A DNA stretch of 64,000 bases, from the NCBI RefSeq assembly GCF_012027615.1, contig NZ_SNUT01000008.1, positions 1 through 64,000 on the forward strand, in the 5' to 3' direction. The position numbers and the translations under genes are program-made. The stretch is from Thermococcus sp. 21S7 (GTDB taxonomy: Archaea > Methanobacteriota_B > Thermococci > Thermococcales > Thermococcaceae). Every line of letters starts with the position of its first letter. The stretch's first letter is position 1. The notes beneath the pieces are model-generated. The model saw nothing but the letters and a program-made list of their open reading frames with translations, was not told the origin of the DNA and searched no databases. Of this stretch, positions 13,398 through 17,348 are shown piece after piece.

Positions 13398-14753
13398 ATG
13401 GCCGTTCACCCGATTGATTACCGCTACGGGAGCGAGGAAATGAGACGTATCTGGGACGAAGAGAACAAGTTGCAGAAACTTCTGGACGTTGAGGCCGCAC
13501 TCGCGAGGGCACACGCAAAGCTCGGCAACATCCCCGAAGAAAGCGCCAGGGTAATCTCCGAGAGGGCCAACACGAAGTGGGTGAAGCTCGACCGCGTTAA
13601 GGAGATAGAGGCTGAGATACACCACGATATAATGGCCGTCGTCAAGGCTCTGAGCGAGGTCTGCCACGAGCACGGTAAATACGTCCACCTCGGCGCCACA
13701 TCCAACGATATAATAGACACGGCCAACGTACTGCTCATAAAGGAGAGCCTTGCCATAGTGGAGAACGACCTTCGGGAAATGCGCTCGATTCTCAAGAACC
13801 TCGCCAAGGAGCACAAGTACACCGTCTGCATAGGGAGAACCCACGGCCAGCACGCGGTTCCAACGACCTACGGGATGAAGTTTGCCATATGGCTCGACGA
13901 GATACAGCGGCACCTGGATAGGATAGAAGAGCTGAAGGAAAGAATTCTAGTCGGCCAGATGAGCGGCGCCGTTGGAACGATGGCGAGCTTCGGGGACAAG
14001 GGACTTGAGATACAGCGCCTAGTTATGGAGGACCTTGGCCTAAAACCTGCCAGGATAAGCAACCAGATAATACAGCGCGACGTCTATGCGGAGCTTATGG
14101 CGGTTCTTGCCCTCATAGCTTCAACCCTCGACAAGATTGCCCTGGAGATAAGAAACCTTCAGAGGACGGAAATACTCGAAATCAGTGAGCCCTTTGGGAG
14201 GAAACAGGTTGGTTCCTCGACCATGCCCCACAAGAGGAACCCCATCAGGAGCGAGAAGGTGAGCGGTCTGGCGAGGGTTCTCTACTCGAACGTGATCCCC
14301 GCGTTGCTGAATAATCCACTCTGGCACGAGAGAGACCTCACTAACTCCTCCGTTGAGCGCGTTATCCTTCCCGAGAGCTTTGTCCTGCTCGATGAAATGC
14401 TCAAGAGCATGAAGAAGGTCCTCTCTGGGCTGGAGTTCTTCCCTGAGAACATTGAAAGGAACCTCTACATGACCCACAACCTCATCATGGCCGAGCCGCT
14501 GATGCTGAAGCTGACCGAGAAGGGTATGGGGAGGCAGGAGGCACATGAACTCGTCAGACAGCTTGCCATGAAGGCGTTTGGGGAGAACAGGGACCTGATC
14601 GAGGTTGCCAGGGAAAACGAAGATGTGAAAGAATTCTTGACTGAGGACGATTTTGAGAGCCTGAAGCCGGAGAACTACATAGGGATGGCACCGCAGATAG
14701 TCGATAACGTAATCGCCTGGATAGAGGCGAAAGAGCAAAAAGAAGGTCTTTAA
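13398..14753 (+). CDS. purB: Adenylosuccinate lyase
   Basis: A 451-residue member of the fumarase/aspartase superfamily. It shows the PurB features GRTHGQHAVPTTYG near residue 140 and the signature loop GSSTMPHKRNPI near 270. The enzyme splits adenylosuccinate into AMP and fumarate and also acts on SAICAR in purine synthesis. I chose the ATG at 13398 because GGTGAT lies a few bases upstream and the protein then begins MAVHPIDYRYG, as family members do. The frame continues 52 codons upstream, but those codons overlap the TATA-like AGGTTTTAAG at 13356-13365. It is monocistronic, followed by a T-run, and is the last normal-GC gene before the AT-rich island. Confidence 0.95.
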   Translation: MAVHPIDYRYGSEEMRRIWDEENKLQKLLDVEAALARAHAKLGNIPEESARVISERANTKWVKLDRVKEIEAEIHHDIMAVVKALSEVCHEHGKYVHLGATSNDIIDTANVLLIKESLAIVENDLREMRSILKNLAKEHKYTVCIGRTHGQHAVPTTYGMKFAIWLDEIQRHLDRIEELKERILVGQMSGAVGTMASFGDKGLEIQRLVMEDLGLKPARISNQIIQRDVYAELMAVLALIASTLDKIALEIRNLQRTEILEISEPFGRKQVGSSTMPHKRNPIRSEKVSGLARVLYSNVIPALLNNPLWHERDLTNSSVERVILPESFVLLDEMLKSMKKVLSGLEFFPENIERNLYMTHNLIMAEPLMLKLTEKGMGRQEAHELVRQLAMKAFGENRDLIEVARENEDVKEFLTEDDFESLKPENYIGMAPQIVDNVIAWIEAKEQKEGL

Positions 14754-14756
14754 TCC

Positions 14757-14763
14757 TTTTTTT
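14757..14763 (+). terminator. T-run terminator after purB
   Basis: Seven consecutive T begin 4 bp after the purB stop codon, followed by further T-rich sequence (CTTAATTTG). Archaeal transcription ends at T-runs without needing a hairpin, so this fits termination of the purB transcript. Confidence 0.6.
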
Positions 14764-14770
14764 CTTAATT

Positions 14771-15493
14771 TGAAGTTACAATTTCCCTTTTTGGATTTTT
14801 GGCCCTTGCCCTGATGGGGCCGGATGCCTCTCAATTTTTTGCTAAATTTTTACGTCTTAATATTATTATGATTATATTTTATATCATTGGCTCAATTTTT
14901 AATATTAATTTTTTTGTTTTTAATCATACTTTTTATTGGTTAAAAATTACAATCTAAAAAATTAAATTTTGATGATTTCTGACTATCCAATATAGTATGA
15001 ATGGGACAAATGTACAGAAATGTCTATACTGGTGGGTGGGGATTCTCTAGATAAATGACCCTTCCACGCACGTTTGCATCCTCCGTTCATGGAGACGTTG
15101 TCGATTAAACTTCTCGGGATGCCAAAAGTCTGTTCTAAGATCGGGCTTTCATGGTACAAAATCGGGTTACAATTAAAGGTGGTATGTGGATGGTGTATAC
15201 TTGATGCTGAGGCCGTGGCATTGGGACACAGGCCCATTGAAAAATCTCTGAGGCGGTAGTGTGTCCAGCAACGGGGATTTTATGGTCTCTTTAATTGGTT
15301 GAGTGCACCCGCTGGGGGTATATCTAATTTGAGAATGTGGGGGCGGAATTCAAGTGCCGGGCGCTGTCCAAGGGGGTGCATCTACCTTCCCTCACATGGA
15401 TATAGTTGTACTTTAGTTTGGGATATAATGTACCTTATATTAAAATTTTGTTTGGTGGTAATATTAACAAAATTTAAAAAGAAACCTCAAATC
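14771..15493. other. AT-rich non-coding left part of a genomic island
   Basis: About 720 bp with no convincing gene. From 14830 to 14990 the sequence is strikingly AT-rich, unlike the rest of the window; from 15000 to 15400 it is of mixed composition with only short frames. A 61-codon frame at 15074-15259 has no ribosome binding site and no family I recognise. A TATA-like ATTTAAAAA at 15472-15480 near the right end probably drives the nuclease gene. I see no tRNA, terminal repeat or transposase here. Together with 16540-16899 it flanks the two-gene nuclease operon. Confidence 0.6.
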
Positions 15494-16228
15494 ATGTATT
15501 TGGTGGGCGCAGTGGGTGCGAAAAACTTGGTTGATAGTCCAGAGGTATATGAGAGGTTAACTCCTTGGGAACCATTTGAGATTCTGAGGCCATTTAGGAA
15601 GTACTACGAGCTCAGAATATCCCTCAGAAACTTAAACCCGCGGACTTCAGCCATTCTTTTAATGCGAGCTGAAACGGGGGCGGATACTTATACATCTGCG
15701 TTATATTTGAGCACAACACTCAGAGCAAAGCTCTCCAGCCTTCAATCTGTTGCATCATGGAAACGGAACAATGCTAAAGATATACTTAAGTATATTCCCC
15801 ATAAACAAGGTCCATTAAGAGAGGGGGAAGTTTTATCTTTAATTCAAGAGGGAGTTGAGTTAGTAGCTTCCAAACTTAATTCCCTACAATTAAACCATAC
15901 CCGCTCAAAGCTTCCCCACTGGATAATAAAAACCCACATAGCCAAATGTTTAGCCAGCAGGACGGTGGTGTTAACAGAATGGACAATGACCAATAAACGG
16001 TATGACCTTTATCTACCCCTTGAGGAAGTCAAAGTTGAAATAAAATACTCATGGGGCTACACTCAGAACTATGGAAGATACCGAGGGGATAGTGATATTT
16101 ACGTCATTGTCGGCAAAAACGTATCCTCAGAGAAAATTGAACGCCTGAGCGAGCTCACCGGTTCAGTTTATATCCTCTACAGACTCGACTACAGAGAATT
16201 CTTCGTCTATGGGGGGGAGTTGAAATGA
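15494..16228 (+). CDS. Probable PD-(D/E)XK nuclease in an AT-rich island
   Basis: A protein of about 244 residues from the ATG at 15494; a GTG at 15509 is an alternative, and the frame is open from 15299. I do not recognise the family, but the C-terminal half has the order of a PD-(D/E)XK core: helix HIAKCLAS, strand ending RYDLYLP with Asp171, then VKVEIKYS with Glu182-x-Lys184, a Tyr-rich loop, and strand DIYVIVG. This is the layout of restriction and Holliday-type endonucleases. The N-terminal half is basic and may bind DNA. The TATA box at 15472-15480 fits a nearly leaderless mRNA. The stop overlaps the next start as ATGA. Codon use is AT-rich, suggesting transfer. No methyltransferase, ATPase or integrase is next to it. 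Confidence 0.65.
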   Translation: MYLVGAVGAKNLVDSPEVYERLTPWEPFEILRPFRKYYELRISLRNLNPRTSAILLMRAETGADTYTSALYLSTTLRAKLSSLQSVASWKRNNAKDILKYIPHKQGPLREGEVLSLIQEGVELVASKLNSLQLNHTRSKLPHWIIKTHIAKCLASRTVVLTEWTMTNKRYDLYLPLEEVKVEIKYSWGYTQNYGRYRGDSDIYVIVGKNVSSEKIERLSELTGSVYILYRLDYREFFVYGGELK

Positions 16229-16539
16229 GCGAGTACAAACACCTTAGACCCCTGGCGGGGGAAGTTATATCGGCAAAACTTAGAGAAGTTCTATTCGTAA
16301 AAAATTACACCAAGCCGTTCTTTAAGGAGAATCCCCGCACGGGGGAGGTTGAGCTCGTTATTCCAGCTAAGTCTCTGAACCGGCTGGAAAGGGAAGTCCT
16401 GAAAGCTGTGGGGTATTCTCCCAAGCCTGTACGAGTTGGAGATGGCGTTGTCATGGCTTTCGTTATACCTGCAACGGAGAGCATGGCAATTGACTCCCAC
16501 CTATCTGAGCTAATCCTTAAAGTGTATCGTGGTTCTTGA
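16225..16539 (+). CDS. Small partner protein of the island nuclease, 104 aa, unknown
   Basis: A 104-residue protein translated from an ATG inside the ATGA overlap with the nuclease gene, so the two are almost certainly co-translated. GGGGGG lies about 7 bp upstream as ribosome binding site. The sequence is mixed alpha/beta, with a basic N-terminus and a hydrophobic VVMAFVIPA strand near residue 75. There is no signal peptide, no membrane helix and no cysteine pair. I do not recognise it. By position it could be an inhibitor, a specificity subunit or a DNA-binding partner of the nuclease. Confidence 0.6.
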   Translation: MSEYKHLRPLAGEVISAKLREVLFVKNYTKPFFKENPRTGEVELVIPAKSLNRLEREVLKAVGYSPKPVRVGDGVVMAFVIPATESMAIDSHLSELILKVYRGS

Positions 16540-16899
16540 TTGTGAATATCTTTTTTGTTTTGTTTGTTGTATCATATTTTTAACTTTTTCTTGTAAATTC
16601 TTCCTAAAATTTAATTTTATTGAATTGTGTTTATATTACTTTTTTAAAATAAAGTTGTTAAACTAATTTTAGTGATTTTTATTTATCCTCTTTTCTTGTA
16701 TTAGGTAAATATTTATAGTAGTTATAATAAACAAAATTAAATAAATCATGACCCTAAGATAATTAAAAGTAAAAACCCTCTGAAAATCTCAAAGCACCAA
16801 GCAATTAGGTACGCTAAAAATAAAAAGAGGCCTGAAAAAGTGCCGTTTAGTAAAAGGGCTGAGAAGAAGGCTTAAGAGGGAATTTAAAAGAATAATACC
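16540..16899. other. AT-rich non-coding right part of the island
   Basis: About 360 bp with no gene. The first 200 bp are very AT-rich with several T-runs (16551-16556, 16579-16588) that could end the nuclease operon transcript. Composition returns to normal near 16850. I looked for a repeat matching the left side of the island and for tRNA fragments and saw none. Confidence 0.6.
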
Positions 16900-17253
16900 T
16901 CAGAGTTCTTCCTCAAATCTTTTAGGCACCTCGTTTCCCTGCGGTAAAATTATGAGCTCCCTCCCCTCCACCAGCATCTGGGCGACTTTTTTTCGGGCCG
17001 AGCTCAGCGCCCTCCACACGGTGCCGCGCGAGACTCCCATTCTCTTTCCGGCTTCCTCCTGCGTCAGCCCTTCGTGATCCACCAGCCTAAGGGCTTCGAA
17101 TTCCTCGTAGGTCATGAAAATAGGTGGTTTTGGCTGACCCATCGGGGGTAACGCGGGATAGAAATGCCTAACCTCTGGAACGAACCCTATCATCCGCCTT
17201 TTCCTTCTCCTTCCCCTTCCACGGCCCCAGCCAGGTCCCGTTCCCATCGGCAT
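16900..17253 (-). CDS. UPF0251/DUF134 DNA-binding protein
   Basis: A 117-residue protein with a Gly/Arg-rich basic N-terminus (GPGWGRGRGRRRKRR), the family motif PPMGQPKPPIFMTYEEFEALRLVDHEG, and a sigma-70 region 4-like helix-turn-helix (TQEEAGKRMGVSRGTVWRAL). UPF0251 genes are often found near NifX-like and Mrp-like genes, as here within 6-10 kb, so a regulatory role in metal-cofactor metabolism is plausible. The ATG at 17253 is my choice; a TTG at 17262 and an ATG at 17247 are close, and none has a strong ribosome binding site. It is divergent from queD. Confidence 0.85.
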   Translation of the reverse strand: MPMGTGPGWGRGRGRRRKRRMIGFVPEVRHFYPALPPMGQPKPPIFMTYEEFEALRLVDHEGLTQEEAGKRMGVSRGTVWRALSSARKKVAQMLVEGRELIILPQGNEVPKRFEEEL

Positions 17254-17348
17254 GGCTATCAAAACCCATTGACGTTTGGGGTTTATAGGGATTTCCCTGC
17301 CCAGTAAGGGTTATAACTCCCTCCCGCGAACCCTGGGTGGTGGGAGAT

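Follow-up and report, generated by a model that had tools for sequence, protein, structure and literature searches.

A horizontally exchanged two-gene cassette at the XerA dif site of Thermococcaceae, encoding a probable nuclease and its putative antidote

Two small overlapping genes of no recognised family sit by themselves in a strongly AT-rich stretch of DNA between purB and a DUF134 gene. What holds such a pair at this position, how does it travel, and what might its two products do to one another? The original prediction took it for an undescribed defence or mobile-element system built around a PD-(D/E)XK nuclease. We analysed the pair in the window, by which we mean the whole stretch of 64,000 nucleotides under study, in the genome to which the window belongs (G000; 2.37 Mb, 99.9% complete) and in related genomes.

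A gene pair beside dif

Both reading frames are open on the + strand, at 15494-16228 and 16225-16539, and share the ATGA at 16225-16228, just as first described. The pair is flanked by purB (13398-14753) and the DUF134 gene (16900-17262, minus strand), and no further plausible gene is found between these neighbours, so the description of two genes alone in a low-GC stretch stands. The whole window has 55% GC, whereas the stretch 14754-16899 has only 38.6%; gene 1 (42.7%) and gene 2 (48.3%) lie in between. What the prediction overlooked in this setting is a unique XerA dif site beside the pair, and this adjacency explains both where the pair lives and how it is exchanged. The features of the locus are as follows.

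15165..15185, + strand: motif X (GGTTACAATTAAAGGTGGTAT), a repeat on the purB side of dif; single copy genome-wide at up to 3 mismatches
15395..15417, - strand: native dif flank retained on the purB side, reading TG-ACA--CATT outward from dif; from compared dif sites
15418..15445, no strand assigned: XerA dif, with arm TTGGGATATAA, spacer TGTACC and arm TTATATTAAAA; the sole dif-like site in the genome
15446..15481, + strand: left end of the cassette with a TATA-like box at 15472-15481, in place of the native flank; from cross-genus comparison
15494..16228, + strand: gene 1, probable PD-(D/E)XK nuclease, 244 aa; from AlphaFold2 topology, invariant residues and dN/dS
16225..16539, + strand: gene 2, proposed antidote or immunity partner, 104 aa; present in 23/115 genomes and under purifying selection

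The dif site first appeared as a conserved near-palindrome when purB-DUF134 intergenic regions from many Thermococcus genomes were compared. It is an 11-6-11 imperfect inverted repeat with conserved flanks, present in one copy per genome, and it lies 48 bp upstream of the gene 1 ATG; the arm facing gene 1 deviates from the symmetric consensus. In G036, taken as T. nautili from coordinate agreement, the last base of the motif falls on 772,784, the coordinate published for dif. The archaeal XerA dif was defined, and 23-bp sequences flanking it described, in a study which suggested that a partner may bind these flanking sequences and which found that P. abyssi XerA recombines dif in vitro without partners (PMC2958812). 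The genome of the window encodes one strong candidate for a XerA-type recombinase. Motif X is conserved close to dif across most of the Thermococcus genomes, in one orientation or the other, and may be where a partner of dif binds.

At nearly all cassette-free dif sites examined, a single flank type (TTATATcnAA....TGnACA.....CATT) is read outward on both sides, and this two-sided arrangement extends to genera g28 (presumed Pyrococcus) and g27 (presumed Palaeococcus). Cassette-bearing dif sites keep the native flank on one side only; the other side carries ttatatgacaATTATGTATAGTGGTAAAATnAACAAA or, in the window, a diverged version of it. Between the same neighbours, cassette-free genomes have DNA that is just as poor in GC (34-44%). 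It follows that the AT-rich island is the dif region itself, and its composition does not mark the pair as foreign. In all Thermococcus genomes examined, about 1 kb around dif is ORF-poor, with 36-54% GC and very AT-rich borders (14754-15417 in the window, with equivalents in L102-L121). Rfam gave no match in the island of the window, so the conserved ORF-less stretch is not a known RNA.

Both reading frames are under purifying selection and are thus true genes rather than chance ORFs: dN/dS among homologues in other genomes is about 0.1-0.4 for both, with 0.15-0.21 for gene 1 (intact, non-saturated pairs) and 0.08-0.36 for gene 2. The start codon of gene 1 is uncertain. Because the TATA-like box at 15472-15481 predicts a transcript start at about 15502, GTG 15503 or GTG 15512 may be the real start instead of the ATG. 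The claim that the pair matches no recognised family survived searches of Pfam, PADLOC, NCBIfam and PHROGs, which returned no family match for gene 1 and, for gene 2, a single PHROGs match at chance level. Sequence searches of the PDB gave chance matches only, and neither gene shows homology to known toxin-antitoxin families.

Predicted fold of the gene 1 product

We modelled the gene 1 product with AlphaFold2 from a six-row alignment of homologues (pLDDT 72.5, pTM 0.78); a single-sequence model reached a pLDDT of 31.6 and was not usable. The model has a helical N-domain (residues 9-130) followed by a core made of a helix (139-154), three strands (160-165; 168-174, with D171; 179-187, with E182 and K184), a further strand (202-208), a helix (212-222) and a strand (225-230). 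The resulting alpha-beta-beta-beta-alpha-beta topology is the PD-(D/E)XK order, with the conserved D and (D/E)xK on adjacent strands, as expected of that fold. Asp171, Glu182 and Lys184, which had been numbered correctly (codons 16004-16006, 16037-16039 and 16043-16045), are invariant in all gene 1 homologues.

The structural check proposed at the outset thus recovered the predicted core; it did not yield a significant structural relative, as Foldseek found nothing at E <= 0.001 for the model. Several of the weak viral Foldseek matches are annotated as PD-(D/E)XK, MmcB-like or DUF559 proteins. Further, the DpnII-MboI family (PF18742) matches the D...ExK strands in 4/6 homologues, below threshold (E 0.03-0.14), with scores of ~12-14 bits that lie far under the family cut-off of 27 bits. 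Together, the modelled topology and the invariant residues make gene 1 very probably a PD-(D/E)XK nuclease, an assignment that is well supported though not proven. Conservation peaks outside the catalytic core, in residues 47-92 of the N-domain (63% invariant, compared with 53% for residues 138-190), which suggests a conserved binding target; the helical N-domain probably recognises DNA.

Boundaries, spread and decay of the cassette

The pair abuts dif in three Thermococcaceae genera whose neighbouring genes differ: purB together with DUF134 or pyk in genus g1, and a small membrane protein together with PTPS in g29 or with MinD-like ATPases in g30. The small membrane protein, of about 110-145 aa (MLEILGFIFYAGAALVILF...), adjoins dif or the same neighbour in g28, g29 and g30 (L059 5542-5925, L062 6319-6660, L068 6190-6534 and L125 1801-2136) and is absent from beside dif in the genus of the window.

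The junctions of the cassette are sharp. G047, which carries it, and its sister G045, which does not, are 85% identical as far as the final base of the dif core (TTATAT); beyond dif they hold unrelated stretches of 1171 bp and 334 bp, respectively, after which 85% identity resumes at motif X'. Homology between G013 and G032 likewise breaks at dif, and a junction at the dif core is compatible with XerA or homologous recombination alike. The cassette end reads ATTATGTATAGTGGTAAAAT, and the counterpart of the left end, ATTATGTATAGTGGTAAAATnAACAAA, is nearly invariant in three genera, even after loss of gene 1. X' directly follows gene 2 in genus g30 as well; it is not recognisable 3' of gene 2 in the window, in G034 and G036, or in the clade that has gene 2 alone. 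G034 and G036 have kept gene 2 (frameshifted in G034) and yet have a native-like flank. In G010, decayed copies of the genes are found in reversed orientation on the side of dif that faces purB, which indicates that either half of dif can be occupied.

We rejected insertion between two dif sites, as no second dif-like site bounding the cassette was found at any locus or in any genome; no circular form of the cassette was seen. A GACA-type arm was rejected as a strict mark of the cassette because it is present in G009, G010, G011 and G021, where there are remnants of a cassette or none at all, and is missing from the cassettes of the window and G113. At two loci without a cassette (L107 in G021 and L108 in G011), the GACA-type arm may have been left behind by a cassette since lost, or may simply be a natural variant.

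Gene 2 occurs in 23 of the 115 genomes of the phylum, all within three genera of one family; it is absent from the other 92, including all searched g27 and g28 genomes, which have dif. Homologues of gene 1 are rare, being intact in G000, G030, G047, G113 and G128 and broken or reduced in G127, G121, G117, G034, G036 and G010. No relatives beyond Thermococcaceae came up in searches of viral contigs, phages, plasmids and GTDB contigs; the single match was to a T. paralvinellae MAG.

The cassette has been transferred horizontally between genera. G047 and G128, a member of another genus, share 88% identity across the segment that starts at dif and ends shortly after gene 2, while the adjacent purB is 72% identical; dS is 0.38 for gene 1 and 0.48 for gene 2, and purB is saturated at synonymous sites, a disparity that indicates horizontal transfer. 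In the purB tree, G047 falls among cassette-free species. A second case is provided by the window and G036, with a dS of 0.47 for gene 2, 1.21 for purB and 1.62 for PTPS. Read together with the junctions, these comparisons indicate that the cassette passed from one genus to another by taking the place of one half of the dif region. Mobility, one half of the suggestion that the pair is a defence or mobile element, is thereby borne out; nothing positive was found for the other half, defence.

The two genes decay in a set order. An intact gene 1 is always accompanied by an intact gene 2 (5/5), while 13 genomes from several lineages have an intact gene 2 without an intact gene 1. These genome counts share ancestry and are thus not independent trials, and G125, in which a contig end cuts the locus, was left out of them. 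Clean losses of gene 1 have left gene 2 behind the cassette promoter at four loci (L064, L066, L068 and L069), and solo gene 2 is under purifying selection (dN/dS 0.15-0.36). Where gene 2 is broken, gene 1 is absent or broken too (G034, G035, G010 and G009). Retention of gene 2 after loss of gene 1 is as expected of an antidote if the poison keeps returning by horizontal transfer, and agrees with the original suggestion that this tightly linked partner could be an immunity protein.

Competing readings and related elements

Our best explanation, held with about even confidence, is that the pair is a selfish poison-antidote cassette of two genes, resident at the XerA dif and exchanged horizontally, in which gene 2 would be the antidote or immunity partner of gene 1. 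The cassette enters by replacing the interval from dif to X', and with it the native flank on that half of dif. This would be an allelic exchange in which XerA or homologous recombination makes the crossover at dif and a second crossover falls at X' or close to it. Gene 1 would act as a nuclease, as its model and motif suggest, and gene 2 would neutralise it, as the pattern of loss suggests. A cell that lost gene 2 while the nuclease remained, or that was newly exposed to the nuclease, would then be damaged, and through this addiction populations would keep the cassette or just gene 2. Against this reading, neither gene resembles a known toxin-antitoxin family, the Foldseek search of the gene 1 model had no match at E <= 0.001, X' is not recognisable at several of the loci, and neither a second dif copy nor a circular form turned up that would point to XerA.

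The main rival, which we consider unlikely, makes gene 1 a homing-type nuclease that would cut the unoccupied, symmetric extended dif or the spacer between dif and X'; repair from an occupied chromosome would copy the cassette in, the lost native flank would shield the carrier, and gene 2 would assist or restrain the nuclease. Several observations fit: what the cassette displaces is precisely the conserved flank on one half of dif, and empty and occupied sites differ there as a result; its junctions lie at dif and X'; gene 1 has been gained and has decayed recurrently; and its N-domain is strongly conserved (63% invariant over residues 47-92). However, the other dif half keeps its native flank, hence a half-site target would still be cuttable, and solo gene 2, unneeded for homing, persists under selection, which fits a helper of a homing nuclease less well because a helper has less reason to stay. 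It is likewise rather doubtful that the locus harbours a gene drive, in which the nuclease would recognise the empty extended dif, the cassette would be copied in via XerA and the X repeats, and gene 2 would protect the carrier.

We regard as improbable a restriction-like defence system at dif, with gene 1 attacking invading DNA and gene 2 serving as sensor or protector of the host. Its nuclease core, the sub-threshold DpnII-MboI match over the D...ExK strands and a patchy, mobile distribution would suit such a system, but no methyltransferase or other defence gene lies near the pair in the window or at the other loci, PADLOC gave no match, and phage, plasmid and viral copies were absent from the sets searched. 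Moreover, the pair is always at dif and never in a defence island, and it is the effector that has been lost repeatedly while the partner was kept. The absence of a linked methyltransferase had been stated correctly; the defence role proposed with it is not upheld. A function in dimer resolution, with gene 2 (and gene 1 where present) binding the dif flank to control XerA or process intermediates, draws on the constant position at dif, on the conservation of solo gene 2 and of the dif-proximal promoter sequence without gene 1, and on the suggested partner for dif-flanking sequences (PMC2958812). We nevertheless find this highly improbable, given that gene 2 is missing from 92/115 genomes, including all searched g27 and g28 genomes with their dif sites, and that P. 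abyssi XerA needs no partners on dif in vitro (PMC2958812).

Read as a poison-antidote pair, the cassette shares with type II toxin-antitoxin systems its small overlapping genes, a putative toxin never intact without its partner and a partner that persists alone; it differs in its toxin-first order, its PD-(D/E)XK-like effector and its lack of similarity to known families. Free-standing PD-(D/E)XK homing endonucleases exist, I-Ssp6803I being one, and a nuclease gene present in one allele, missing from the homologue and passing through cycles of gain and decay is reminiscent of them; the conserved partner gene, and a site that is dif rather than a coding gene, are not. The likeness to DpnII-MboI systems is confined to the weak PF18742 match over the D...ExK strands in 4/6 homologues, with a score far under the cut-off and the methyltransferase missing.

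Closer parallels are found among elements at Xer sites. IMEX are integrative elements that exploit Xer, such as filamentous vibriophages. The cassette is like them in having no recombinase gene of its own, a location at dif and a hybrid dif arm at the junction; unlike them, it has no second dif and no replication or phage genes, spans only 1.2 kb, and replaces dif-X' DNA instead of inserting beside dif. The dif (pdif) modules of Acinetobacter are likewise small cassettes at Xer sites that spread horizontally (PMC6449649); they have dif-like sites at both ends, are mostly plasmid-borne and are moved by XerC/D. Our cassette, by contrast, has a single dif, with X', a repeat other than dif, at its opposite end, and resides on an archaeal chromosome with a single XerA and new protein families. 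It thus resembles dif modules and IMEX but has one dif where they have two sites. A literature search of incomplete coverage found no dif-linked cassette in archaea, and part of a review of archaeal tyrosine recombinases treats dif solely as a resolution site (PMC8371274). The cassette looks like a member of the Xer/dif-associated mobile cassettes, and seemingly the first in archaea.

If this is right, it would be the first archaeal dif-resident mobile cassette and among the smallest, with two genes from two uncharacterised protein families, and the dimer resolution site of Thermococcales would be an arena for selfish elements. The occupied, empty and scarred alleles of related species would form a natural record of archaeal dif recombination, and the pair would supply a candidate partner for the sequences that flank dif, whose function has been an open question ever since the archaeal site was first reported. 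Were the gene-drive reading true, the cassette would represent a new class of mobile element living only at archaeal dif.

Exchange at dif was also seen apart from the cassette. In the comparison of L117 with L120 (G049 and G032), the right halves are 79% alike from dif on, while the left halves are unrelated and X is reversed. Each half of the dif region is thus exchanged on its own, a sign that recombination occurs at dif without the cassette.
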